From: a virus
IMG/VR virus record: IMGVR_UViG_3300042731_001703
Location: 1 to 32,401 of that record
Length of the DNA: 32,401 nt
Direction: 5' to 3' (one strand)
In this document: positions 3,406 through 26,351 of the stretch, in pieces
How positions within the stretch are numbered: the first letter of the stretch is position 1
How the letters are laid out: every line of letters starts with the position of its first letter
The notes under the pieces: model-generated
Databases searched by the model: none
Told to the model about the DNA's origin: nothing
The model's input: only the letters and a program-made list of their open reading frames with translations
Translations under genes and position numbers: made by a program

Positions 3406-3437
3406 CATTGACCTCCTTCTTGTCCACACTCGCACAT
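3351..3437 (-). CDS. Possible 28-residue Cys-rich micro-ORF, antisense to a gene end
   Basis: ATG at 3437 and TGA at 3351-3353 enclose 28 codons beginning MCECGQEGGQCYCDFWDD. The CxC...CxC arrangement recalls small zinc-binding peptides and the 49-residue Cys-rich protein at 455-604. A good Bacteroidota-type promoter points this way from 3566-3596. Against it, the ORF is very short, it overlaps the end of the plus-strand nuclease gene, and another frame starting at 3447 is open for 27 codons. Treat it as a candidate only. Confidence 0.3.
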   Translation of the reverse strand: MCECGQEGGQCYCDFWDDVESGDLILFV

Positions 3438-4107
3438 ATTTCCCCCATTAAAAATTAGACATACTATCCCCTAATACAACTTCCTATACCAGGGTTCAAC
3501 CTACATACTTGATTTTGTCGGTGGCTCCCAAAAGCCATCCGCCATGCTTGTATAATTGAGTAAAACAAAGTTACAACTTATTTTTGATAAAGTCAAGTCC
3601 CAAATGAGACAAATGATACTTCTTGTCTGGCTTAACTGCCCTTAAAAAAAATACCCGATCACAGCCGATCAATTATTTCCCAGAGTCCTAAAGACCGGGG
3701 GGATTATACGCTACATGACGGCGTTCGGTCGTAGAACCCAAAACGATTATCCGAACCCACCCCCCAAGTGTGAGATTCCGAATCCGAAAAACATTTGGCG
3801 TTTTACCATCTAATGCGTTGTGGATCAGGCGTTTGTACCTCTTCACCTACACGATTACTTGAACTCATGTATGGTATCGTATTGCACCCAAGGACATTGC
3901 GAATCTAGGGCGCACACCCCTCCTTGGTTGACAATCACACCCCCCTCCCTAACTACTTCAAGAATATATCTTATTGGGTATCACATGCTTACCCCCCTTG
4001 TGGTAAATTATTGGTATAGGTGATTGGTGCTAACTACCTATAAAACAGTTTGTTCGAGACCAGGAATAAATTATCGGCGCGTACTATGATTTATATCCTA
4101 CATGAAC
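3438..4107. other. About 670-base region without a convincing gene
   Basis: Neither strand has an ORF I would call. A GTG-started plus-strand frame at 3820-4023 is rich in Thr, Pro and His and lacks gene-like composition. The minus strand has only 10 to 28-codon frames. Several C-runs of five or six (near 3760, 3940 and 3991) and one G-run (3698) are unusual for this A/T-leaning sequence. CCGATCA occurs twice close together (about 3655-3675), and ATTCCGAATCCG is a local repeat. The region could hold an origin, small RNAs or decayed genes. Confidence 0.5.
3566..3596 (-). promoter_or_regulatory. Bacteroidota-type promoter candidate, reading left
   Basis: On the minus strand TTG (3594-3596) is followed after exactly 20 bases by TAACTTTG (3566-3573). 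This matches the Bacteroidota sigma consensus TTG / N19-21 / TAnnTTTG. It would transcribe leftward into 3350-3560, opposite to the rightward operon that ends at 3405. A transcript from it would carry a hairpin at about 3518-3542, the possible Cys-rich micro-ORF, or act as an antisense RNA. Confidence 0.45.
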
Positions 4108-4210
4108 TATATTGTGGGTGTACCAATCGGTACGATGTTCTTTGACATATGGGCATTTTTCTAACCACCTATGGAGGGTTCTCCTTCATGGGCTAAATCT
4201 TTATTTTATT
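4108..4210 (+). promoter_or_regulatory. Structured leader 1: hairpin, rrn-like boxA, second hairpin
   Basis: In order: TATATTG (4108-4114), a -7-like element; a perfect inverted repeat GTACC-AATC-GGTAC (4120-4133); GTTCTTTGACAT (4137-4148), which fits the boxA motif of bacterial rRNA leaders; TCTAACC (4160-4166); an imperfect hairpin (4168-4191, core GGAG/CTCC); and TAAATCTTTATT (4194-4205) just before the ATG at 4211. The same order recurs at 5371-5464. Hairpin-then-boxA is the rrn antitermination order. A role in recruiting NusB/S10-type factors is inferred. Confidence 0.6.
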
Positions 4211-4867
4211 ATGAGACATTTCAATTTGTCATCGATGATTAATTCATCACTCGAAACCTACCAACAAGTCGTTGGTGAAATCGCAAAAGAGATTGTAAAA
4301 ACTAGGAAGTTATCCGACAAAGAATTCATCACCATTGATGACCTTGTTGTGAAGGAATTTAGCGAAGCATTCTATGTGGATTTAAATGAGCTTCAACGAG
4401 CGGAAGACATGTTGAATGAATTCCTGGTCGAAGCAAAAGGTCTTGATGAAGACCAAGTGCAAGGAGCAATTTCCGATAACGCAACCTTCTTTTGTGAGTT
4501 GGGTGAGAAATCAAATTACTTGATAAGAGTCTTTAAGAGATTGGAACATGCAATGCGACACAACCAATTGTTAGATATTGAGAATGCACCAACGATTATT
4601 GACTACGGATTACATCCATTAGATGCAAGGGAATTGCGTGAAGGAGGATTGGAACATGATGACCTTCATGACTTTCAATTATTCCAAGCCTTCATCAACT
4701 CGATTGAGTTGGGTAAGAATGTACATGACCTTGAAATCATGTTTGATGTACGACCAATGTCGGAGAAATTCGATGCGCTAGGCAATAGAGTTGAGTTCGA
4801 CATGGAGACCATGGGCATAGCCAATGACAAACTCACAAAAGAACTTAAAATGGGCATGGATTTATGA
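4211..4867 (+). CDS. Unknown acidic protein, first gene behind leader 1
   Basis: This 218-residue protein begins MRHFNLSSMINSSLETYQQ. I chose this start because the second leader copy also places its ATG directly after TAAATCTTTATT; the frame is open further upstream, but that would run through the leader. It is acidic and mainly helical, with HDDLHDFQLFQAFINSIELG near residue 150 and no transmembrane segment. No family is recognised. Leucine is often TTG, more so than in the replication genes, which may hint at separate acquisition. It heads a three-gene unit closed by a terminator, so it is probably expressed independently of its neighbours. Confidence 0.68.
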   Translation: MRHFNLSSMINSSLETYQQVVGEIAKEIVKTRKLSDKEFITIDDLVVKEFSEAFYVDLNELQRAEDMLNEFLVEAKGLDEDQVQGAISDNATFFCELGEKSNYLIRVFKRLEHAMRHNQLLDIENAPTIIDYGLHPLDARELREGGLEHDDLHDFQLFQAFINSIELGKNVHDLEIMFDVRPMSEKFDALGNRVEFDMETMGIANDKLTKELKMGMDL

Positions 4868-4947
4868 TGTGCTTGGTTCTGATCGTTATCCTCGTACCAA
4901 TCCTCATGGAATTGGGCGATGCAATTCAAATCTTTAAAAGAAAATAA
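4864..4947 (+). CDS. 27-residue hydrophobic peptide, single membrane segment
   Basis: ATG at 4864 overlaps the stop of the preceding gene in the ATGA arrangement, and TAA at 4945-4947 lies two bases before the next start. The peptide has an N-terminal hydrophobic run (LVLIVILVPILM) followed by a short basic tail (FKRK), as expected of a small inner-membrane peptide with its C-terminus inside. The coupling on both sides is the main support. Small phage membrane peptides can act in superinfection exclusion or as lysis helpers; no function can be assigned here. Confidence 0.5.
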   Translation: MMCLVLIVILVPILMELGDAIQIFKRK

Positions 4948-4949
4948 TC

Positions 4950-5216
4950 ATGACACAAGAAGAAAAAAATGCAATGTGGAGGTTCATTATGGTGAACCTT
5001 GATGAAGTGCTAGAAGATATCCTTCATGAAAAAGCAAGAAGGTACATGGATGACCTTGATGAAATCATCAAAGACAAACACCGAGTAAATGGAATGTACG
5101 ATTCCATGTTGAGTCTTGATGAATTCTTGGATTACTACCATGAGAAACTCACACTATCCCAATACAACGAAGGAATGGCTATCCTTGATGCGTTCGGAGT
5201 TGTACGGAGATACTAG
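4950..5216 (+). CDS. Small acidic unknown protein
   Basis: This 88-residue protein begins MTQEEKNAMWRFIMVNLDEV. It is acidic, probably all helical, and rich in Asp, Glu, Tyr and Met. A patch DDLDEIIKD near residue 36 echoes the acidic style of the first gene in this unit. The function is unknown. It starts two bases after the 27-residue peptide and ends seven bases before a strong terminator, making it the last gene of the unit. Confidence 0.65.
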   Translation: MTQEEKNAMWRFIMVNLDEVLEDILHEKARRYMDDLDEIIKDKHRVNGMYDSMLSLDEFLDYYHEKLTLSQYNEGMAILDAFGVVRRY

Positions 5217-5223
5217 GAACTAA

Positions 5224-5249
5224 CCCTCACCATCGGTGGGGGTTTTTTT
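5224..5249 (+). terminator. Intrinsic terminator closing unit 1
   Basis: Eight base pairs form between CCCTCACC (5224-5231) and GGTGGGGG (5235-5242), with one G-U pair and a three-base loop, followed by seven T. The tail GGTGGGGG-T7-ATGCCC is identical to that of the terminator at 6164-6194, which points to a shared origin of the two units. Confidence 0.9.
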
Positions 5250-5347
5250 ATGCCCTAAACCTTGGAATCAAACGATCATGTGCTTCACCCTAAAACCCCC
5301 ATAAACACTAGGTTTTATTCCGAGCTTTGCTCCTCTGGGCGGTCTTG

Positions 5348-5464
5348 TTGCATAATTCAATGGAAGGTGGTATATTGGGGTATCGCCACGGCGGTGATGT
5401 TCTTTGACATGTGGGCAACTAAATCTAACCGCTCCTCCTAGGAGGGGCATAAATCTTTATTGTT
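5348..5464 (+). promoter_or_regulatory. Structured leader 2: promoter, hairpin, rrn-like boxA, second hairpin
   Basis: TTG (5348-5350), 20 bases, then TATATTG (5371-5377) gives a plausible Bacteroidota promoter lacking one T in the -7 box. A hairpin ATCGCC/GGTGAT (5382-5398) follows, then the 22-base boxA block at 5396-5417, which matches 4134-4155 at 21 of 22 positions. After TCTAACC comes a near-palindrome GCTCCTCCTAGGAGGGGC (5431-5448), then TAAATCTTTATT (5450-5461) and the ATG at 5465. Hairpin sequences differ from leader 1 while their positions and pairing are kept, which argues for selected RNA structure. Confidence 0.65.
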
Positions 5465-6148
5465 ATGAAAACGATTAACGAATTGTTCACCTACTTGAAG
5501 GTGATGAACGCACAAGGCTTCAATGGTAAGAAAACAACCATGAAGATGATTGCAATCTTGAACGGCAAGAATGAAGAGAAGAAGGGGATGTTGAAAATAA
5601 AGATGCTAGGAAGTGGCGTACCTTTGGGTACTGTAAATTTCCTACACCACGACATCGCTAGAAACATGGCGGAATTGGAAGTAAAAGGTTTGCTCCCTAG
5701 ACTACCATCTAACATGAGCGGTCACTACGATACCAACTTCAAATCTTACAAGGATAGAGGACTCATCACCTACAATAGAGAAGGTGTGAAAATCACAAAA
5801 CTTGGTCTCCAATATTTGGATGAACCAAAGGAGTACAAGAAGGTAAGAAAGCAACAACTTGCTATCCAAAAAGCAAGATACGAAGGCTTCAAAGTTGCAA
5901 GGGAAAATATCAATCGCTCGAACTCAATTCAAGATGATTTTATCTTTGGAAGATTGCTAGAACGAATGGTTGCATTGGAGAAAAAATACAACCTATATTC
6001 TTGTGATATGGTGCATGACCAAGATGCACTATTTGAGATTCAAGAAGAACTTTTAGATATCATGATTGCAATGAGCAATCGGACAAAAAGAGTTCAACTT
6101 CACCGAGAATTGCCTTACTTATTCCAACGAGTTGGAGTACTCAAATAA
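5465..6148 (+). CDS. Winged-helix-like unknown protein, sole gene behind leader 2
   Basis: This 227-residue basic protein begins MKTINELFTYLKVMNAQGFN. Residues about 58-118 read as a winged helix: a helical part (FLHHDIARNMAELEVKGLLP), then GHYDTNFKSYKDRGLITYN, then GVKITKLGLQYLDEP. The GxYxxNxxxxxxxGLI...GxxxxTxLGxxY pattern also occurs in the 123-residue protein at 7803-8174. The C-terminal 110 residues are helical and of unknown role. It sits alone between its own leader and terminator, so it may be a DNA-binding regulator expressed at a separate time. The fold suggestion is by eye; targets are unknown. Confidence 0.65.
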   Translation: MKTINELFTYLKVMNAQGFNGKKTTMKMIAILNGKNEEKKGMLKIKMLGSGVPLGTVNFLHHDIARNMAELEVKGLLPRLPSNMSGHYDTNFKSYKDRGLITYNREGVKITKLGLQYLDEPKEYKKVRKQQLAIQKARYEGFKVARENINRSNSIQDDFIFGRLLERMVALEKKYNLYSCDMVHDQDALFEIQEELLDIMIAMSNRTKRVQLHRELPYLFQRVGVLK

Positions 6149-6163
6149 GAGTTCTAAACTAGA

Positions 6164-6194
6164 CCCTCATCGATATATCGGTGGGGGTTTTTTT
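6164..6194 (+). terminator. Intrinsic terminator closing unit 2
   Basis: CCCTCATCGATA (6164-6175) pairs along all 12 positions with TATCGGTGGGGG (6176-6187), two of them G-U pairs, followed by seven T. The central bases would form the loop. From GGTGGGGG onward it is identical to the terminator at 5224-5249 through ATGCCC. Confidence 0.9.
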
Positions 6195-6474
<280 letters not shown>

Positions 6475-6560: not shown

Positions 6561-6654
6561 TGTACCAATATGGTACACATATATATATAGAGAGAGAGTG
6601 GGAGGATATTTTTATCCCAAGTGTTGCATATTAAATATATCCTACTTACATTTA
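6561..6654 (+). promoter_or_regulatory. Palindrome, hairpin and promoter candidate ahead of the replication block
   Basis: TGTACC-AATAT-GGTACA (6561-6577) is a perfect inverted repeat closely related to the GTACC-AATC-GGTAC of leader 1. GGATA-TTTT-TATCC (6604-6617) can form a second hairpin. TTG (6624-6626), 20 bases, then TACATTTA (6647-6654) differs from the Bacteroidota promoter consensus at one position and lies 25 bases before the ATG at 6680. The first repeat could be an operator shared with leader 1. Confidence 0.5.
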
Positions 6655-6679: not shown

Positions 6680-7447
6680 ATGTGTAATTCAAACCAGCCG
6701 ATACCAGTCGGCACAGTTGTCAAGTTCAAGATTTGGGACACCGAGAAAGATGGTCAAGGGATCGGGGTGATTCTAGAAAACCAACCTAGATTAGGTTACG
6801 AAACAAAGTACCGAGTTCACTTTAAAAGGTTCCCGGAACTAGTATACCAAAAGGGCGACCCTACCGAACTCACCATTTCTCAAAGCGATATTAAGGAAGT
6901 CCTAGAGACAGGAGCTCGCCTTTGTAGTGTAACGCACAAGCCCATGAGTGATGGCTACGTTTGGGATGGTGGTGTCCACTATTGTTGTGATGATGAAGAC
7001 ATCATGATTAGAGAGATAACGGAAGACCTAAATGTTCAAGACTCTTTTTGGAGCGAAGCGGATAAGGAACGCATCCTAGGTGCTGAAAATATCATTCACG
7101 AATACTTTGAAGTATGTGAAGAGAACGACCTTGAATTCTACTACACGGAATGGGATTTAGAAGAGTCCGTTCGTGAAGGTCAAGGATGGTTCTTGATGAA
7201 TGATGAAGCCGATGATAGAGATATCTTCGGAGTGTTTGATAGAGGACTTTTAGAAAAAGCCTTTGAGGAAATTGATGATGGGTCTGATCCTATGGGCTAC
7301 GATGATATGCTTACCTCGGAGCGCATGGAGGCAATCTCCGACACCGAGGGGGCGGAAGATATCGAGTGTGAAGGGTGCGGTCACATCAATACCCACGATA
7401 CTGAAGAGTTTGGATTTTGTGTAATGTGTTTAGAGCATATAGTATGA
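6680..7447 (+). CDS. Acidic zinc-binding protein, first gene of the replication block
   Basis: This 255-residue, very acidic protein has three visible parts. Residues 8-75 form a small beta-rich domain (VGTVVKFKIWD..., ...RVHFKRFPELVY). Residues about 84-110 read C-x-V-T-H-KPMSDGYVWDGGVHYCCDDE, a pattern I know from phage proteins with a 'CDITG..M..GY' module. The C-terminus has a rubredoxin-like zinc knuckle, CEGCGHINTHDTEEFGFCVMC. No catalytic site is recognised. A zinc-stabilised scaffold or DNA mimic are possibilities from composition only. The start is preceded by TTTATTTGTC and a promoter candidate; the next gene overlaps its stop (ATGA). Confidence 0.68.
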   Translation: MCNSNQPIPVGTVVKFKIWDTEKDGQGIGVILENQPRLGYETKYRVHFKRFPELVYQKGDPTELTISQSDIKEVLETGARLCSVTHKPMSDGYVWDGGVHYCCDDEDIMIREITEDLNVQDSFWSEADKERILGAENIIHEYFEVCEENDLEFYYTEWDLEESVREGQGWFLMNDEADDRDIFGVFDRGLLEKAFEEIDDGSDPMGYDDMLTSERMEAISDTEGAEDIECEGCGHINTHDTEEFGFCVMCLEHIV

Positions 7448-15994: not shown

Positions 15995-16443
15995 TATTTC
16001 TCTTCTCTAATTGCTGATCCAAAATAATATCCGAAGATAGACAAGGCTACACCTTCAACGATACCTATAAGGTGAATGAATATCTCCTTGTTCTCTTCAG
16101 GTACATGTAAAAATACGATAGAACAAACAAGAAAAGAGAAGGCTCCTAGACCCACCAAACCTGTAACATTGAATAACCAATCTTTAGCACCCGCCTTAAC
16201 CATCTCGGCTTGACGAGTTCGTGCGCTATCACGATCAGCAACTTCGAGTTTGTACATGTCCATTACTTGAGTGTTGAGTTCCTTCTTCTCATCCGCACTC
16301 ATGGGTACGGCTGGGTCATCGATCAATCGTTTAACTACACCCAACGCACCTTGATCCGGGAGAAGGTCTCCTACAATATCTAAAACTTGAGGTGCTTTTT
16401 CCTTAAGCAACTTCCCAATCTTTGTGTCTTTTATCTTTTTCAT
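15994..16443 (-). CDS. Holin-like membrane protein
   Basis: This 149-residue protein has a charged helical N-terminal part with LEVADRDSARTRQAEMVKAG (about 68-87), a pattern common in a class of phage holins. Two hydrophobic segments follow, at about 89-113 (LFNVTGLVGLGAFSFLVCSIVF) and 119-143 (FIHLIGIVEGVALSIFGYYFG). The short basic end reads REEK. It would sit in the inner membrane and release or trigger the endolysin. Its ATG overlaps the stop of the giant gene by four bases (ATGA) and its own stop overlaps the DUF5675 start, giving a compact lysis cassette. Confidence 0.75.
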   Translation of the reverse strand: MKKIKDTKIGKLLKEKAPQVLDIVGDLLPDQGALGVVKRLIDDPAVPMSADEKKELNTQVMDMYKLEVADRDSARTRQAEMVKAGAKDWLFNVTGLVGLGAFSFLVCSIVFLHVPEENKEIFIHLIGIVEGVALSIFGYYFGSAIREEK

Positions 16444-19400
16444 TCTAATCTTAACACTTTAACAGATTCTCTATTATTAATAATCTCTTGTCTCATACGA
16501 TACCAATCAAATATTTGACGAGTACCATCCTCACGAGTCATATAACCTTTTGAATATCTATTGTTTATCTTTTTAACAATATTTATTTTGGCTTCATCCG
16601 TCAACCTATCCCAAGAGGCAGCACCCACTACAGTTCTTAATTGGGCAGTTCTTTGTTGACCCAACAACATTAGCATCTCGTTTACTTCGTTGGTAGTAAA
16701 CTCTACCTTCTCTGATCCACGATTAATTTTATATTCCTTATTAAGTATGAGGCTTGGTATAGAAGGCAATGCATTCTCATCGCCAGTTCTACGATATAGG
16801 CTATATAGTTCTACCTTAAGAGGGTCATCCGTAGCGAGGCGTGTACCTGTAGGGTCTAGGAATTCATAGAACACAGGGTCGGTTCCAGGAGGAGTCTGAT
16901 TAATCTTCTCACCCCAAACATTTATTCGAGCAGGTGCTGGGTTGTCACCTCTACCAAATGCTCCAAAGGTTCTATCATAGATTACATTCTTGAATCTATT
17001 GGTAAACCCTTCATCACGATAGTCTAACAAGAACTCACGCTCCGCTCTAAAGAATGAGGTGTATATGTTTGGTAACGGAACCGATACCATAGCACGACTT
17101 AACTGCTCGAAGTATTTTGAAACCACATCCATGTCCTCGGTGTTTTGCAACATCTTGGTTAAGTTCTCCATACCTGTCAAGAACGACTGATCCATCAATG
17201 CGCCCAATGTACCGAGGGTGATACCGAAGGAACGCTCAAGGAAAGTACTTACCGCATCCTGCTCTTCAAGACCATATACTTTAAGCTCTTCCTCTTTTGA
17301 GAAGTTTTGGTCTCTATCAATAACTTGGAATGCTTTAATATACGCTGCCATCACCGCACCCGGTAAACCTAGTTTAGAGAAACCTACTCTGCGATCAGAC
17401 GGAAGGAATGGTTCGCCTTGCTCACGACCCATAGCCGATACATTGATAGTAAATGGTGGCTCTACTTCATAGGCTACACTACGAGCTTTCGGACTCAACT
17501 CATCAACTGCCCCACTAGCAACTCCTTGGTCGTAAAGTCTACGAGCAAATAAGAATAGCATGTACCCCATAAGAGCGGTTGCTAGTTTCTCTGATCTATC
17601 TCGTGCCTTCATCCCCGGTACAAATGCTTGAGCAAATGTAAGTGGGAACAATGTCAACTCTAGTGATTGTGATAGGATGTTAAATGGAGTCTTAACAAAA
17701 GGGAAGTTAGACTTCACCATAAACTTCATAGCGTTACCAAAGACTCTTGTCAAAGCACTATCACTTGCAGCACCAATGCTTCCCGCTTTGTTGAACCATG
17801 ACTGTACCTTTTCGGTAGTTAAAAGTCCTAGCAATACTGTCGAGTCGTTTTCTTGGAAGGTTAACTTAAGACCCTTTTGACGAGCAATATTCATATGCTC
17901 TTCGGTAGGATACTTTAAGAATTGTTTTAGCGACTCTCCTTCAAGACCTAGTTTCTTACCCTGTTGATACAACTCGTATCCTTCCATACCTCTATAGAAT
18001 GGTCGGTCACCAAGCACAAGAAGTTTGAAGTTACCAGCAGCGGTCAAACCAAAGATACCCTCGAATAACTTTTTAGTCTTGTAGTTCATAAAGTCTAGTT
18101 GACCATGGAACTCTTGCGGTAGGTTTTCTTTTCCTCTACCAAAGACTGTGGCTAGTGCTACTAGTGGTCGGAGTTGATATCCTGCGGTGTATTCAAAATC
18201 CCCTGGAGCCTTGCCCGTCTTGATGCTCTTGTATGCTTCCTTCAATCCGTACCACGATCTTTGCGCTCCATAAATCATAGCCCCAAACGAAGGACGAATT
18301 TCACGACCTTTAGGGTCTAGCATAAAGTTGATAGGTGCTGCAATAAGTTGCTCCCCTAATCGTAGTGGTAAGGTAAATGCGTTCGCAATGACGTTCGTTG
18401 TAATAGAACGAAGAGTAAGAAGGTTACCTTGCATGATGGTAGACAATAGTGTCCCCCATGATGGAGCATTGAACTTTTGGAATTCGTTGATACCACCTAT
18501 TGCTTTCTCCAATCTATCTTGCGCCTCTTGAACTTTTTTATCAAGGGTGTCAAAGTTATTAGGATCAGTTTCTAATACCTCGGATACAACCTTGTCGTAC
18601 TCGTTCTTTGCGGACATGTACTCGTCAACAATTTGAGTAAGTTCTTGTAGTGATTCATCTTTTAGTGGAGTGCCTTTTTGCTCGTACTCATTCGCAATAA
18701 TCGAAACCATACCATCAACAGTCTTGCCTTTGATTTCTCCAAACTGACGGAGCAGTTGACCAAAGGTTGTACCCATCTTGGTAAGTTTCGCAAGTTCCAC
18801 CTTGTACGCATTCATGTTGCCTTGCTTTCTCAAACGCTCTAGGTACTCGACTTGTGCAAGTACTAGTATGTTACCATCGGTTGAGAAGTCCGTTCCTCTA
18901 GAATCATCGGATATCATTCGCAAGATGTCCGTATCTAATAAGGATACAATCTCCGCCGTAGTCATCCCCATCAACTGCTCTCTTGAAGCATTGATACTTT
19001 GAGGCTTGTAGAAGAAGTCCGCTCCCTCATCTTTAGAACGAAGCGTTCCTTTGGCTGCTCTTCTCTTTGCTTTAAGAATAGTTTCGGAAAACGCAATCTC
19101 TTGAGGTGTTCCTGTCTTAAGCATGTCCACGAACTTCCTCGTGGCTTGGCGCATTTTTAGGTTAGCTCGCCCGGTATCGTTGCTAGTATTTCCGGGTGTA
19201 CTTCCTGGGGTACTTGTTCCGCTAGGTAAATCTCCTCCAGCCAAGTCTCCTTCGTTAGTGGTTTCCCCTTGCGTAGTATTTCCTTCGCTACTAGAAGGTC
19301 GGTGCCAGAAAGGGTGCTTAATATTTGTTCCCCTTGGAGTTTCTGTGTCTGTGTCTTTTTCATCGAAGTATTTTTTAATTTCATTTTGTACATCTTCAAT

Positions 19401-22400
19401 CGCCTCTCCTTGATAGTCCTTGTAGATTTGAGCAATGTCTGATCTACTAGATTCATCACGAAGAGTTGACGGCATTAATAATCGAATTACCTCCCATGTG
19501 ATAGACTGCATTTCACGAGGTAGTATTCCTCGTTGATTTGCTGCCTCGGTATATGCATCAAGGTATGCCCAATAGTTTCCAGATAATCCATTCACCTTTT
19601 GGTTCATGATACCTGATCCAAAGTTCTCGTTTACCGCTGCACTCTTTTGACCATAAGGCATAAGTTCAGCCGCAGCAACCGCATGGGTATCCATAGTCAC
19701 ATCACCATCGGTAGCATCTGGGTTAGCGATGTTGTTGTAGAAGTGTCTGATCTTGTGACTACCACCGAGCAGTTCGCTAATCATTGCAACGTCATTGTTC
19801 TCAAACATCGTGATTGCTTTAGCCATATTGCTAAAACTTTGAGTCACAACCTTTCTAGCATTACCATCCTTTGTTGTATAGATACCAAGATCGTCCCCAA
19901 CAGGATTGTACGCTTGAATAGTAGAAGGCATGTATACCTCTCTAAAGTATCTTACAAACTTCGCTTTCTCTAGAGCATCCATACTAGAAAGTGTTCTTCC
20001 TCGTAGGTTGTCCATAGACTCTTTGAATGAGTTGAAACTATCTCTATCCTTCTTCAATAGTTTCGATGCAGTCATCTTCTTGCCTTTGGCTTTCTTCTTG
20101 TATGTGCTACTATTGACACCCGTTTGTCTATACGACTCGAGCTTTCTTTCAATAGCGGTGTTGTACATCACATCATCAAAAGTAGAGTTTTGTTGATTGT
20201 ATAAAACCTCAACAATGTTATATGCATTTTGAATATTGATAAACCAATCCGCACCTGGTGACAATGCAGCGAGGATACCCGCCGACTGCTCAATGCTTAT
20301 ATCGTACTTACCCGACATGTCCTTCGCAATCTTGTTAGCACCATCGTACCATCTACGCATGTACTCACGAATCTCTGGATCAGCGAGGTCATGTAGGTAT
20401 AGAAGGTTAGAAACAACACGCTCTTTAAATGTAGCGTATATTCCATCTGCCCATTCTTTTTGGCTTTGTAGTTTCATAGAGCCATTGTCGATTGCTGATT
20501 TTGGATTTAAGACAACCATGTTCTCTACAGTGCGTGGGCTTTTAGTTTGGTCTGCCTGCTGATCTACAAAAGACACCGCATCAAAACCCGCCGACTCAAG
20601 AGCAGCAAAATATTTCTTACGCTCTCTAGGATTAAGTATAAATGGAATATCCTCTAAAGAAAAATTTCTAGCCTCCATACCCTCTATGTCTATTAACATA
20701 AAGAACATAGCATCTCCAGTCGCATCATACTGCGCCATCTTTGAAGGGAACAGTTGTCTTGCTATCTCTAGTGCTTGGTCTTGAGAAGCAACCTTTGATT
20801 CCAATACATAAACAGGGTTGACTAGTTTAGGATTAGATTTTTCCTCGGCATCTTGAAGGCGTTGGTAATCTGCGGCTTCACTTTCTTCGGGAGATATGTA
20901 TAGTGGTCTATCGTTAGAGATTTCTTCTAGACCGAAACCACCATGATATAGAGTGACCATACCTTCTCTAGAGTAGTCCTCTTTCGGCATGTTATCAATA
21001 AAAGGTGGAACCTCTTGATCGACCATTAGCGGATGGCGTTCCGTACTTGTCAACGCTATTGCGTGTTCTACATAGATAGGTTTCTTGTTTTTATTTGGAG
21101 CAGCCAATGAGCGTACAGTTGCCGCAGTCATGTCCATGATATCGGTTGACTTGCCTTTGCTTACCGCAATACCTTGACCAACTCTTTGCGCTGCAACGAT
21201 GCCTTCTTTTAGTGCCTTAATAGATTCGGCATTCAATGCAGCACGACCTCCAAGGATTTCGTTTCTTGCTTTATCAACCTTGTCCTTAACCTTTTGTTGG
21301 AAGCCTAGAGTGTATGCTTTAGTATAGTCACCATCTTCCATCATGATGGTATGGTTCTCCATCCATGATAAGTATTCAAGGCGTTTGTATGGGTCGCTAA
21401 TATTATCGGCATCGTTAACCAACTGATCCATCGTACCCGGAACTTGATCAGGGCTAGTCAAATACCATGACACATCACCCATCTTGCTAGTGTAGAAACT
21501 ATACTCTTTTTGGCGTGTCTCTTCTAGTTTACCCTCACCTACCATATCTTCATGGAAACGCTTCATTCTCTCGTAGTTAGGCGTATTGATAGGACGGATT
21601 TGTTGAAGCACAGGGTTTGGGAAGTCGTTGGTAGTACCTGCTTCAAAGGCAAGAGAATATGAACTTATGTCCGTACTTGGGGCTCCAAGGTCTACAAGTT
21701 CTATCAACATATTTTTCATGCCTCGTGTGAACACACCAAAGCCCTCGACATCAATCATGTCAAATACGCTGTAGTTCTTTTCGAACATATCGTTGAACCC
21801 TGCCTTGAATGCTAACCTTGTATCGGTAAACTCTCGACCTTCCGCATAGACTCTATTAAACATGTTATTAATAAAGCCATCCATGTCGGCAATAGTCACA
21901 TCGATATATGCCTTTGCAGTTTCTTTTGCTTTTTCTTCTATCTCAATTCTTTCCGAAGGTGGTGTATTATCAAAAGCACTACCTAGAACATAGTCATGAA
22001 GTTTTTTAGCGTTGCCGTATATGTTTGCGTAGAAGTTTTTACTTGGGTCAAAGGCAAGTTTTCCCATCACTCTTTCTACCTCATCACGATAGAACTCTGG
22101 ATTATCTTCCATTGTCCCAAAATCCTTTTCATTGATTTTGACCGCCGACATAGAAAGCATGGCTTGTTGCATTGGTCCAGCAGCAATCATATTGTACATG
22201 TCCTCCATAAGTTCTGAAACTTCTGGGTACAACATGCTCATATCATATGGTTGACCATTAATAGCGAGCTTTGTCTTTTCTCCCGGTAGCGGAGACAACT
22301 TAAATAGTCTTGGACGAAGTCGGCTTCCAGGGTCAAGGGCAGTCATTTTTTTATCTCGTGCCTCAAACCCAAATCCAAACTGCTCTTCAAATTGCTCTCT

Positions 22401-25400
22401 TGTTTCTGGTAAGAAGAAGTTACCTGCTACGATTGGGACACGAACATTTCTTGGCTTGACCAATAGACCCTTGGTAGATACGTCAATGTCGTTTTTGTAT
22501 TGATAGAAATCTAAATAGAATTCCAACATATAGTCTTTAGCACCATCAAGGCTTTGAGAAGCAAGATCGAACACCTCGGTCATAAACGCCGGGGTAAATG
22601 TACTTGGGTCATCAATATCCATAGAAGCAATATCGCCTTCGGTAGGTTCAATCACAGGTCTATTCATGAAAGACTCGGCTTGTACAATAAATGCTTCTTG
22701 ACGAGCTCCTGCAACTTGCTTGATGGTTTTTGCATTTAGACCTAATGCTTTTGTAAGCATGTTGATATTAGCACGACCACCATCAGGAACAGGCTTGGTT
22801 CTAAATGGTGTTGATACATCTTGCTTAATTGCTCTACCTTGTCGAGAAGCGAATGCAAATGTTTCGGCTAGTCTATCTAAAGAAGTATCATCGGTAATCG
22901 TTAGGTCTTTAAATCCAATAGCAGATAAAGCACGATTAATAATTCTTCTGATCTTGGCTTTTATTGAAGAATCAATTTGATTCATGTTCTCGCTATAAGA
23001 AGTAAGTACACGAATAACCGCTTCTTCTTGAACCATAGCCTCAATACCTTCAGGGGTCATTCCTAGTCGCTTACCCTCTGCTTGATATGCGCTAATAAAC
23101 GCATCCATATCAGGAGCAAGTGCTGGGTTCTTTTTAACAAGGTCTAATACTTCTTGATATAATCGAGTACGAACCTTGTCGTCCGACATAATACCACCAA
23201 GACCCGCGTGTGCAAACTCTTCTCGAATTACCGCATCGCTAGAGTCGACAGTAATGTTGATGGTATTGTTATTGAAGTTGTAATACGCATCATAACCTTG
23301 AGTGTTGTTTGCTCTATTCAAGTCTTCGGTATTATTCCAAATAACTATACGAACATCACTACCAATATTTTCTCGTAAGGCTTTTACAAGGTTGTTTACT
23401 GTTTGGGCTACACGCTCACTAACACCACCTCTTGGAGTAATGGTATTTATTCCGCTTGTTAGAGCAGGTTTTGGAGCAGGTGCTTCAGGTTCACTAGGTG
23501 CTTCTTCTACAGGCTCTTCTGGAAGTGGGGGAGTTTCCTCGCTAGGAATAACAACCTGATCACCTTCCTCTGTCTCTTCTGTAGTAGGTTCCGTACTAGT
23601 CTCGGTCTCTTCTACTGGACCACCCATTTCCGCTTCAATAAAGTCGCCAATAACATCGTTTAAAGAACGAGTATCCTTGTTGTTGGTTTGTGGTTGGCTA
23701 AAGTAATATGCAATCTCTTGCGCCACCTCTCCTCGGAAAGTTCTATTGCGCCCCTTGGAATCTTTTAAGGTTACACTTACAACCTCACCATCTTCATTTA
23801 AATTAATAGACCTCTTACCACGAGGAGCAGTATACTCTTTACCTCTAATAGTAAACGATCCGTCTTCGTTTAGGTTAGAAACAAAAGAACCAAACCCTGC
23901 CTCTTCAATAGTCTGTCCTTCTAGTTCAGAGATGTTGCCTAGTTCAACAACACTACCATCGGCTTCTGTCACAGAAACCTTACCGCCTTCGTCAATCGTT
24001 AATAATCCACGAGCGATTTGACCCGTAGGCAACTTAACTACAGTTTGTTCGCCATTAAGTTGTTCAATGGTAGGTGTCGGCTCTTCTTGTACAATAGGCG
24101 CACCTGGTGCAGGTTCAACACTTGATTCAACACCTGGAATAATCTCTGCTTGTACAGTCCCCGGTCTTGCCTCTTGAGGGTTTATAATGTTTTGTATATC
24201 ACCATATAGTTTACCAATCTCACGAATAACCGCTTTACGACCCGGATCAGATTTCTTAAAACGCTTAAGTTCAACCATCATATCGTTCATCTGTCTCGTC
24301 TTTTCGCCTACGGCTTTACGATCAGCGACCGATAGATTTTGTAGTGTTTCTATGTTTCTATTTAGCGTTTCATACTTTTGATTCTGTAGGGTTCTTACAT
24401 TCTGTCTATGCGTTGCACGAGCCTCCTTGCTTTTCGCTTTACGAGCAGCCTGTCTTTCTTCTTTGATACGCTGATCAATAGAACGAACTTCATTGTAATT
24501 CATTGCGGAAGCCACAGTCGTAAGTTCATGTGAGTCGTTATTGAGAATAGCAAATCGCATGTACTGCTTTTCTGCGGCACTCATCTCTTTACCCTTGACT
24601 GCATTGAAGGCTTTCATTGGAGCAGTTTGTACTGTTTGACCGATGAACTCTAATGCAATACCCTTCACATCGTAAATCTCTCCTGTCTCAACAACTTGAC
24701 CTAGAGCCTCACCCGCTGCCCCCATAGTGGCTTCGGTCAACTCTCGATATGCGGCAGATTTCAAGAAAGAAGCACCGCCCTTCATAAGGCGTTTGTATAT
24801 AGCACTTGCCGTACCATAACTCATCATATCGACAATAGCAATAGGAATACCTTTAGCCAAACCTCTAGTACGAGCTTCACTCATCGCCTCTGGATTTTCA
24901 AAGGCTTTTGCTAACTCTTGTGGATTGGTAGTGTCGTAACCAAGTTCTTGGAAAACCTCTAGTACTTTAGAAGAATACTCAAGGGCAAGACCTTCCTTAC
25001 CATATAGCATTTTGATTGCGGTAGAAATCCCCGCCCCTTCAGTTACAGCACCAACACCCGCGATAAAAGAAAGGTTATAAGCATCCGCAAAAACACCTGT
25101 CGTCAAGGCAACGGCAGATTCAAAAATAGGAGAAATAACACTAGATATTACAGTGTCAAGACCAGTGAGGAAAGCATTATCTGTGTCCCAACCTACTTGC
25201 TGGTTATCACGCATCAACTTTTGATAGTATGCTAAACGCTCATAATCGATCTCATGCAAAAAACTAGAGATTGGGTCAAGCATATCTGACTGCATTCTAC
25301 TAATGATAGCACGATTGTAAAAGCGCACTAAATCTTTGCCGACCCCTGTCTCATCGCCGGGAGCGTTCTCTTCGTCAATAAGCCAAAAAGAAAAGTAGTC

Positions 25401-26351
25401 CTCACCTGGTGTAAGGAAGTCCTCGTGAAACGCATTATGACTATGTAGTTTTACTCCGAGTTCTTCGGCTGCACTATACATCTCGTCTTCAGTTAAACCT
25501 TTGTCTAACCAATTTGCAACAAAAAGACCTTCTTGCTTGGCTGCTTGAAATGACATAGGAGAAGTATAAAACCTCTCTCTATTTTCTATCGTCATATTAT
25601 CACCAAACTGTGCAACCCGATCTCTATCAAAACCCTGAATAAACAAGTTGTCGGTGTAGGCATTGATAGTCATGCCTTTTTCTCTAGCATCTTTTATAAT
25701 ACTACCCGCTGCGTTTTGAGATGCCTCTTCTGAATACCCGTAATATTGATAAAGGTCAACTAATTGTTTGGCAGATATATCCTCAACACTTTCATAAACA
25801 CCAAGTTCATCCATTCGCTGATTTTCAGCAAATGCTTCCGCTTCTCTGTCTTCTGCGTATATAGTTTCGGGGAACGGATTGTCCGCCGTTAGTTGTTCAA
25901 AAAGTAATGGGTTGCTTCTTTGAAGTTCTAGTGGGTTGGCTCGATACTTACTATTCCAATCGTCAAACCATTGTTGTTGAGCATTAGAGGTTGCTTCTTC
26001 ATCGATAACCCCTGGACTATACTGCCCACTATAGTTAAACCCTAGACCTCCAGCATATGGTGAGTCTTCCGAGTTTGAATTGGAAAAATCTAGAGGTTGA
26101 AAGTTCCCGTCCGCATCCGTGTAACCCCGACCCCTTGCAGCAATGGCAGATGCTTCCTCGTCTTTTTTTTTTTGGATCAGTTCATTACGAATTTCGCCCA
26201 TTGCACTTCTTAATTGTACAAGGTCGAATCCTTGGCTTAAACCACCACGAAGGATATTGTTTTCATATTCTTGAAGTTGACCTTGGTCTTCAAGGTCGAA
26301 GTAGTCATCACCAAATTGACTTCTTAAATATTCTAGAATTTCTTCGTCCAT
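16440..26351 (-). CDS. Giant 3303-residue multidomain (polyvalent) virion or ejection protein
   Basis: One open frame of almost 10 kb. Visible segments: a hydrophobic helix region at about 397-447; an acidic/proline linker at about 910-965; a degenerate zincin-like helix REEFAHAG near 1040-1050, lacking the first His of HExxH; an ADP-ribosyltransferase-like stretch at about 1795-1955 (LYHGGFGLEEI..., PLYISPEESEAADYQ..., GFDAVSFVD, ENMVVLNPKSAI); a helical region at 2010-2300 with ILAALSPGADWFINIQNA and GGSHKIRHFYNNIANP, resembling helix-hairpin-helix glycosylase-like phage domains; a Ser/Thr/Gly linker at 2337-2400; and hydrophobic stretches at 2630-2680 and near 2925. Such proteins are usually packaged and injected. 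It lies between the internal virion genes and the holin. Confidence 0.8.
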   Translation of the reverse strand: MDEEILEYLRSQFGDDYFDLEDQGQLQEYENNILRGGLSQGFDLVQLRSAMGEIRNELIQKKKDEEASAIAARGRGYTDADGNFQPLDFSNSNSEDSPYAGGLGFNYSGQYSPGVIDEEATSNAQQQWFDDWNSKYRANPLELQRSNPLLFEQLTADNPFPETIYAEDREAEAFAENQRMDELGVYESVEDISAKQLVDLYQYYGYSEEASQNAAGSIIKDAREKGMTINAYTDNLFIQGFDRDRVAQFGDNMTIENRERFYTSPMSFQAAKQEGLFVANWLDKGLTEDEMYSAAEELGVKLHSHNAFHEDFLTPGEDYFSFWLIDEENAPGDETGVGKDLVRFYNRAIISRMQSDMLDPISSFLHEIDYERLAYYQKLMRDNQQVGWDTDNAFLTGLDTVISSVISPIFESAVALTTGVFADAYNLSFIAGVGAVTEGAGISTAIKMLYGKEGLALEYSSKVLEVFQELGYDTTNPQELAKAFENPEAMSEARTRGLAKGIPIAIVDMMSYGTASAIYKRLMKGGASFLKSAAYRELTEATMGAAGEALGQVVETGEIYDVKGIALEFIGQTVQTAPMKAFNAVKGKEMSAAEKQYMRFAILNNDSHELTTVASAMNYNEVRSIDQRIKEERQAARKAKSKEARATHRQNVRTLQNQKYETLNRNIETLQNLSVADRKAVGEKTRQMNDMMVELKRFKKSDPGRKAVIREIGKLYGDIQNIINPQEARPGTVQAEIIPGVESSVEPAPGAPIVQEEPTPTIEQLNGEQTVVKLPTGQIARGLLTIDEGGKVSVTEADGSVVELGNISELEGQTIEEAGFGSFVSNLNEDGSFTIRGKEYTAPRGKRSINLNEDGEVVSVTLKDSKGRNRTFRGEVAQEIAYYFSQPQTNNKDTRSLNDVIGDFIEAEMGGPVEETETSTEPTTEETEEGDQVVIPSEETPPLPEEPVEEAPSEPEAPAPKPALTSGINTITPRGGVSERVAQTVNNLVKALRENIGSDVRIVIWNNTEDLNRANNTQGYDAYYNFNNNTINITVDSSDAVIREEFAHAGLGGIMSDDKVRTRLYQEVLDLVKKNPALAPDMDAFISAYQAEGKRLGMTPEGIEAMVQEEAVIRVLTSYSENMNQIDSSIKAKIRRIINRALSAIGFKDLTITDDTSLDRLAETFAFASRQGRAIKQDVSTPFRTKPVPDGGRANINMLTKALGLNAKTIKQVAGARQEAFIVQAESFMNRPVIEPTEGDIASMDIDDPSTFTPAFMTEVFDLASQSLDGAKDYMLEFYLDFYQYKNDIDVSTKGLLVKPRNVRVPIVAGNFFLPETREQFEEQFGFGFEARDKKMTALDPGSRLRPRLFKLSPLPGEKTKLAINGQPYDMSMLYPEVSELMEDMYNMIAAGPMQQAMLSMSAVKINEKDFGTMEDNPEFYRDEVERVMGKLAFDPSKNFYANIYGNAKKLHDYVLGSAFDNTPPSERIEIEEKAKETAKAYIDVTIADMDGFINNMFNRVYAEGREFTDTRLAFKAGFNDMFEKNYSVFDMIDVEGFGVFTRGMKNMLIELVDLGAPSTDISSYSLAFEAGTTNDFPNPVLQQIRPINTPNYERMKRFHEDMVGEGKLEETRQKEYSFYTSKMGDVSWYLTSPDQVPGTMDQLVNDADNISDPYKRLEYLSWMENHTIMMEDGDYTKAYTLGFQQKVKDKVDKARNEILGGRAALNAESIKALKEGIVAAQRVGQGIAVSKGKSTDIMDMTAATVRSLAAPNKNKKPIYVEHAIALTSTERHPLMVDQEVPPFIDNMPKEDYSREGMVTLYHGGFGLEEISNDRPLYISPEESEAADYQRLQDAEEKSNPKLVNPVYVLESKVASQDQALEIARQLFPSKMAQYDATGDAMFFMLIDIEGMEARNFSLEDIPFILNPRERKKYFAALESAGFDAVSFVDQQADQTKSPRTVENMVVLNPKSAIDNGSMKLQSQKEWADGIYATFKERVVSNLLYLHDLADPEIREYMRRWYDGANKIAKDMSGKYDISIEQSAGILAALSPGADWFINIQNAYNIVEVLYNQQNSTFDDVMYNTAIERKLESYRQTGVNSSTYKKKAKGKKMTASKLLKKDRDSFNSFKESMDNLRGRTLSSMDALEKAKFVRYFREVYMPSTIQAYNPVGDDLGIYTTKDGNARKVVTQSFSNMAKAITMFENNDVAMISELLGGSHKIRHFYNNIANPDATDGDVTMDTHAVAAAELMPYGQKSAAVNENFGSGIMNQKVNGLSGNYWAYLDAYTEAANQRGILPREMQSITWEVIRLLMPSTLRDESSRSDIAQIYKDYQGEAIEDVQNEIKKYFDEKDTDTETPRGTNIKHPFWHRPSSSEGNTTQGETTNEGDLAGGDLPSGTSTPGSTPGNTSNDTGRANLKMRQATRKFVDMLKTGTPQEIAFSETILKAKRRAAKGTLRSKDEGADFFYKPQSINASREQLMGMTTAEIVSLLDTDILRMISDDSRGTDFSTDGNILVLAQVEYLERLRKQGNMNAYKVELAKLTKMGTTFGQLLRQFGEIKGKTVDGMVSIIANEYEQKGTPLKDESLQELTQIVDEYMSAKNEYDKVVSEVLETDPNNFDTLDKKVQEAQDRLEKAIGGINEFQKFNAPSWGTLLSTIMQGNLLTLRSITTNVIANAFTLPLRLGEQLIAAPINFMLDPKGREIRPSFGAMIYGAQRSWYGLKEAYKSIKTGKAPGDFEYTAGYQLRPLVALATVFGRGKENLPQEFHGQLDFMNYKTKKLFEGIFGLTAAGNFKLLVLGDRPFYRGMEGYELYQQGKKLGLEGESLKQFLKYPTEEHMNIARQKGLKLTFQENDSTVLLGLLTTEKVQSWFNKAGSIGAASDSALTRVFGNAMKFMVKSNFPFVKTPFNILSQSLELTLFPLTFAQAFVPGMKARDRSEKLATALMGYMLFLFARRLYDQGVASGAVDELSPKARSVAYEVEPPFTINVSAMGREQGEPFLPSDRRVGFSKLGLPGAVMAAYIKAFQVIDRDQNFSKEEELKVYGLEEQDAVSTFLERSFGITLGTLGALMDQSFLTGMENLTKMLQNTEDMDVVSKYFEQLSRAMVSVPLPNIYTSFFRAEREFLLDYRDEGFTNRFKNVIYDRTFGAFGRGDNPAPARINVWGEKINQTPPGTDPVFYEFLDPTGTRLATDDPLKVELYSLYRRTGDENALPSIPSLILNKEYKINRGSEKVEFTTNEVNEMLMLLGQQRTAQLRTVVGAASWDRLTDEAKINIVKKINNRYSKGYMTREDGTRQIFDWYRMRQEIINNRESVKVLRLE

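Follow-up and report, generated by a model that had tools for sequence, protein, structure and literature searches.

Two transcript leaders of a Bacteroidota phage carry a copy of the host rRNA boxA, suggesting that the host Nus machinery is borrowed

The window analysed here is the whole stretch of 32,401 nt from IMG/VR virus record IMGVR_UViG_3300042731_001703 (positions 1 to 32,401). Two short gene units lie in it, unit A at approximately 4120–5249 and unit B at approximately 5383–6194 (Table 1). The leaders of the two units share one order of elements: a -7-like TATATTG, hairpin 1, 3 nt, the boxA GTTCTTTGACAT, RTGGGCA, a spacer, TCTAACC, hairpin 2, TAAATCTTTATT, and ATG. The boxA sequence has exactly two exact copies in the whole window, those of units A and B, and its end is separated from the start codon by 54–62 nt. 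An earlier note on this DNA, made from the sequence alone, had described a 22-base repeat with one difference, followed each time by TCTAACC, a second hairpin, TAAATCTTTATT, and a start codon, and had assigned twin intrinsic terminators to the units. All of these elements were located in both units, and the terminators share an exact 24-base end (5232–5255 and 6177–6200). The description of two gene units with duplicated leaders also held, with the refinement that unit A contains two ORFs, not one.

Table 1. Positions of the leader elements, ORFs, and terminators of units A and B in the window, and of extended boxA blocks heading tRNA arrays in other phages.
Feature	Record	Position	Strand	Basis or remark
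Unit A -7-like promoter element TATATTGT	window	4108–4115	+	putative; conserved CTAT.TT in alignment; TATCTTAA in some relatives
Unit A hairpin 1 (boxB-like), GTACC-AATC-GGTAC	window	4120–4133	+	folding and pairing across leaders
Unit A boxA GTTCTTTGACAT	window	4137–4148	+	within repeat block 4134–4155, tail TATGGGCA
Unit A TCTAACC	window	4160–4166	+	
Unit A hairpin 2, 10 bp	window	4168–4192	+	folding
Unit A TAAATCTTTATT, ahead of start codon	window	4194–4205	+	repeat
ORF A1, 218 aa, without known family	window	4211–4867	+	
ORF A2, 88 aa	window	4950–5216	+	
Unit A intrinsic terminator	window	5222–5249	+	folding
Unit B possible -33 TTG	window	5348–5350	+	putative; conserved GTTGC
Unit B -7-like element TATATTGG	window	5371–5378	+	putative
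Unit B hairpin 1, ATCGC-CACG-GCGGT	window	5382–5395	+	UUCG loop in relatives
Unit B boxA GTTCTTTGACAT	window	5399–5410	+	within repeat block 5396–5417, tail TGTGGGCA
Unit B TCTAACC	window	5424–5430	+	
Unit B hairpin 2, 7 bp	window	5431–5448	+	folding
Unit B TAAATCTTTATT	window	5450–5461	+	repeat
ORF B, 227 aa, without known family	window	5465–6148	+	
Unit B intrinsic terminator	window	6161–6194	+	folding
Extended boxA GTTCTTTGACATRTGG heading tRNA array	L233	1737–1752	+	
Extended boxA GTTCTTTGACATRTGG heading tRNA array	L276	280–295	+	
Extended boxA GTTCTTTGACATRTGG heading tRNA array	L243	3508–3523	-	
Extended boxA GTTCTTTGACATRTGG heading tRNA array	L268	12837–12852	-	
Extended boxA GTTCTTTGACATRTGG heading tRNA array	L275	4469–4484	-	
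Extended boxA GTTCTTTGACATRTGG heading tRNA array	L253	1519–1534	-	

Hairpins fold on both sides of each boxA, and the terminators fold strongly in both units (z-scores of -3.8 and -5.2). Hairpin 1 consists of 5 bp and a 4-nt loop in units A and B alike. Between A and B, three of the five pairs have changed on both sides, and 35 of 35 cells are paired across seven distinct leaders; this supports the structure but is not strong covariation, because it is essentially one comparison of two paralogous leaders. Four pairs of the unit A hairpin 2 vary across relatives, on one side each and with no pair broken, and in the unit A terminator of one relative (L011) an A-T pair is swapped for G-C. Pairing of the boxA region itself, as given by RNAfold, was dropped since by inspection it was not kept in all relatives. 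An Rfam search gave no match.

The proteins encoded by A1 and B are unrelated to each other (BLASTP E-value 0.94), and the duplicated part is thus leader and terminator only. No relatives of A1 and B were found among annotated phages, a family search with both yielded nothing above chance, and no solved relative of protein B was found. Fold models of A1 and B were poor (mean pLDDT 36 and 41, respectively).

Relatives of ORF B were found in nine contigs, and relatives of the leader in ten contigs and the part-covered contig L182, all of them in IMG/VR only. No more relatives came from an alignment search, and DNA searches with the region, and with the leader alone, returned nothing relevant among annotated phages. 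The recurrence of the leader in related phages, which had been proposed as a check, was found in all ten relatives covering the region. The two leaders stand in the same order in every relative covering both units, and no third copy was present at up to three mismatches in the relative records searched whole. The boxA core has few variants across relatives (GTTCTTTGACAT, GCTCTTTGACAT, GCTCTTTGACTT, and GTTATTTGACAT), and few parts of the region are as well conserved as the leader, whose identity is 0.85–1.0 per 60 bases vs. approximately 0.4–0.9 in the upstream intergenic DNA.

The block was compared to the rRNA leaders of 119 Bacteroidota contigs (L022–L140) that were picked by their 16S start, blind to boxA. 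At up to two mismatches, the phage 12-mer was detected in 66 of 110 rRNA leaders vs. one of 110 shuffled leaders, and in three leaders the match was exact. In a de novo motif run, most starts converged on the rRNA promoter TACCTTTGCACCCGCT; boxA came from another start. The motif seeded by this de novo consensus was refined on 106 rRNA leaders with the phage excluded and reads G[TA]TC[TA]TTGA[AC]A, which, as a by-product, serves as a consensus of boxA in the rRNA leaders of Bacteroidota. When both strands of the window were scored with the 11-base core of the motif, positions 4137 and 5399 were jointly top (17.49 bits; the next site scored 15.04). The core sequence GTTCTTTGACA is the second-best of all 4^11 (4.2 million) words under the rRNA motif, with 0.05 occurrences expected in the window. 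The similarity to Bacteroidota rRNA leaders that the earlier note had proposed to look for was thus found with a motif built without the phage. Under the full 16-nt motif, which adds the five preceding bases, the phage sites score 13.7 and 13.0 and rank only second and fourth, and so the A-rich host flank before boxA is not copied by the phage. In a further phylum-wide rRNA sample (L152–L181), which is not wholly independent because L169 stems from a genome already in the first set, 23 of the 28 loci with leader sequence scored at least 12; two of the five misses had only approximately 120 nt of leader. The Bacteroidota boxA lies approximately 120–280 nt ahead of 16S, and many Flavobacteriaceae extend it by ATTGAATTGACAG; the Flavobacteriaceae rRNA form GTTCATTGACATATTGAATTGACAG was absent from the viral contigs.

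Host rRNA leaders also have a recurrent order: the promoter TANNTTTG, in most of them approximately 18–47 nt, with a hairpin, and then boxA (the full range of the -7-to-boxA distance is 18–161 nt). A perfect stem of at least 5 bp stands between promoter and boxA in 40% of the leaders vs. 10% of shuffled ones, and suitable hairpins arise by chance at approximately 15% of positions. In the phage units, 20–21 nt separate the conserved -7-like element from boxA. This element is imperfect, reading TATATTG or TATCTTA vs. TAHHTTTG. A spacing rule with T at -12 and G at -5 applies to Bacteroidota promoters (PMC6847099). By this rule, transcription is predicted to start at approximately 4120 in unit A and 5383 in unit B, on the first or second base of hairpin 1, which would give 5' untranslated regions of approximately 82–91 nt.

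The antitermination leader of bacterial rRNA operons has the order boxB-boxA-boxC. The phage leaders resemble it in having a hairpin and then boxA at the predicted start of the transcript, and the phage core is one of the words that score highest under the Bacteroidota rRNA motif; two features of rrn-type leaders, the match to the boxA of the host group and the boxB-like hairpin upstream, are present. The gammaproteobacterial boxA consensus GYTCTTTAANA differs from the phage sequence at one position (PMC5725501), at which 88% of Bacteroidota rRNA leaders carry G. Unlike rrn leaders, those of the phage precede protein-coding units and continue with a second hairpin and a start codon. They also differ in the tail, as boxC of rrn lies 18–19 nt downstream of boxA (PMC10250234), whereas in the phage TGGGCA is fused directly to boxA. 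The phage RTGGGCA resembles E. coli boxC UCUGUGUGGG, yet it directly adjoins boxA, and host rRNA leaders lack it: no counterpart of TGGGCA after boxA was seen in those examined, the 17-base form with TGGGC occurs in none of 395 Bacteroidota genomes, and the form with TGG was found once in 247 Bacteroidota genomes, which is about chance. The proposal of the earlier note that the phage borrowed an rrn-like leader is partly supported: it stands for boxA and for the layout with a hairpin before boxA, and it does not extend to the TGGGCA tail, which is phage-specific.

The extended block GTTCTTTGACATNTGG, while nearly absent from host genomes, recurs in other phages. Its 16-base form was found in 90 stretches of IMG/VR, approximately ten of them from this clade, which is hardly above the 74 of the reversed control; enrichment is limited to matches that are intergenic or linked to tRNA genes or promoters. 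Of the 72 matches outside the clade, 17 were intergenic, vs. five of 74 control matches (p-value 0.005). A tRNA gene followed 8–13 nt downstream on the same strand at six phage sites vs. 0 of 74 controls (p-value 0.013), and TAHHTTTG stood at most 40 nt upstream of seven matches vs. none in the controls (p-value 0.006). These p-values are descriptive because the tests were devised after the first intergenic matches had been seen. The tRNA arrays headed by the extended boxA (Table 1) comprise up to 25 tRNAs, and in four of the phages (L233, L243, L268, and L275) the order is TAHHTTTG, 4 nt, boxA, and the tRNA array. Because boxA follows the -7 element after 4 nt there, the transcript of the array would begin with boxA itself. 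These sites share the extended block GTTCTTTGACATRTGG with the two units and, in the four cases, its position behind a host-type -7 element; they differ in that boxA coincides with the predicted +1, the tRNA genes begin within 13 nt, and no hairpin leads. The papers that we found do not describe phage tRNA arrays headed by boxA.

In a distant relative, the annotated phage ctfjg026 (MW202828), the primase-helicase matches 27% of the query at 44% identity. This phage carries GTTCTTTGACATATGG at position 43604; the first plus-strand ORF of an early-looking block starts approximately 260 nt further on. An TACCTTTG element precedes GTTCTTTGACATATGG and a CACATGG/CCATGTG hairpin follows it; the extended block probably heads the early block of this phage. 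Among 11 reference phages, a loose boxA pattern was no commoner than its control (four vs. seven matches). Cores resembling the rRNA boxA lie near the left ends of Tenacibaculum phage Gundel_1 (L203, 679–690) and Maribacter phage Panino (L151, 528–539), and they may be due to chance because the control pattern was equally common overall. Tentatively, and with somewhat more doubt than belief, we propose a wider use, in which Bacteroidota phages carry their own extended boxA of the stable-RNA type, GTTCTTTGACATRTGGG, and employ host Nus factors without a phage N at the 5' ends of early or untranslated transcripts (tRNA arrays, starts of early blocks, and the two mRNAs of this clade); such blocks may also titrate NusB-S10 from host rRNA synthesis.

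NusB-S10 binds boxA in E. coli, and this element is key to the assembly of the antitermination complex on rRNA (PMC10250234, PMC6614801). The leaders described here probably act in a comparable way, with the boxA of the transcript recruiting host NusB/S10 to the host RNA polymerase, most likely for rrn-type protection from Rho that stops at intrinsic terminators. Units A and B would then be short operons read by the host RNA polymerase from a sigma-ABfr-type promoter, and their leader would mimic the front of a Bacteroidota rRNA transcript, with a 5'-terminal hairpin and then boxA. On emerging, boxA would be bound by host NusB-S10, which would join NusA and NusG on the polymerase. The likeliest effect would be processive antitermination of the rrn type, i.e., faster, Rho-resistant elongation across the unit, until the strong intrinsic terminator ends transcription. 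Given how short the units are, and that an intrinsic terminator closes each of them, processive antitermination has little room here. Such terminators should be respected better by an rrn-type complex than by the N complex of lambda.

That Nus factors are recruited has better support than any particular outcome of this, and the leader could protect or repress. The main functional rival to Rho protection, one that we regard as unlikely though well ahead of the others, is that the boxA leader recruits Nus factors and represses expression, with an RNA loop between boxA and polymerase hindering ribosomes as for suhB and lambda N, so that expression would sense free Nus factors. Boxes of this kind are present in the mRNA leaders of E. 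coli suhB and of a Citrobacter koseri ParE-like toxin; that of suhB represses translation and promotes Rho termination, and it still represses when as many as 100 nt of spacer are inserted (PMC5725501). The two phage leaders likewise place boxA within the 5' untranslated region of protein-coding genes, at a distance from the start codon that hairpin 2 would shorten. They differ from suhB in this distance, in the hairpins on both sides, in belonging to a phage genome, and in having Bacteroidota hosts, which are described as being without Shine-Dalgarno sequences (PMC6847099). We favour Rho protection for three reasons: in other phages this block stands ahead of tRNA arrays, which are untranslated, so that translational repression would be senseless there; the layout of the leader copies that of rRNA leaders; and strong intrinsic terminators close each unit.

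Two further readings are disfavoured. It is improbable that a phage repressor uses hairpin 1 as its DNA operator at the start site and that the rest is a plain untranslated leader. The palindrome GTACC-N-GGTAC does recur at 6562, before a third unit, and elsewhere in relatives, but the unit B hairpin differs in sequence, and boxA and hairpin 2 are left unexplained. Slightly more improbable still is that the 22-base block and its hairpin form the promoter of a phage-encoded RNA polymerase. Phage N4 uses hairpin promoters, the block with its hairpin is repeated and strongly conserved near gene starts, and a giant protein of 3303 aa exists in the structural region. However, this protein is without a polymerase domain or a catalytic DxDxD/G motif, no polymerase family was found among the scanned proteins of a 57-kb relative (a PF00940 scan was silent, although also in controls, and a divergent polymerase could have escaped), other phages have the block behind host-type -7 elements, and the match to the host rRNA boxA would be coincidence. 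The idea raised by the earlier note that related mobile modules were inserted twice was rejected as the repeated leader and terminator end are its sole attraction, while the cargo genes are unrelated, no boundary repeats were seen, place and order are fixed in all relatives covering both units, and no further copies were found in the records searched whole.

The proposed recruitment of Nus factors resembles lambda-type nut sites in that a phage leader combines boxA with a nearby hairpin and presumably has host Nus factors as partners; it differs in that the hairpin lies upstream of boxA, as in rrn, and intrinsic terminators follow at once. No N family was found among the proteins scanned. To our knowledge, it is mainly for the lambdoid phages, with their additional protein N, that Nus-dependent antitermination by a phage has been described. 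Signals of the boxA type, their use by lambdoid phages, and their presence in mRNA leaders are already known, and we found no paper on boxA in Bacteroidota or their phages in the open-licence literature. If Nus recruitment holds, a phage of another phylum using a bare rRNA signal would represent a simpler, N-free route, the leaders would provide a sequence from which to study Nus function in Bacteroidota, and they would point to a way for long phage tRNA arrays to evade Rho.

Some further features of the window were observed. DUF7178 (PF23802) is the sole recognised domain of the 3303-aa protein, which is encoded amid structural genes at 16440–26351 on the minus strand. The approximately 700 bases before unit A (3406–4107) contain no convincing gene and gave no Rfam match, and they are moderately conserved in relatives. 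The palindrome GTACCAATATGGTAC at 6562–6576, upstream of the third unit (ORF 6680–7447), is like the unit A hairpin 1 without a boxA; it is also present in two relatives (L005 and L007) and may be an operator or a 5' hairpin. A long GA dinucleotide run occupies 6420–6472 within a 500-base non-coding stretch, with another at 6590–6599, and in the relatives a short GA run likewise follows the palindrome.
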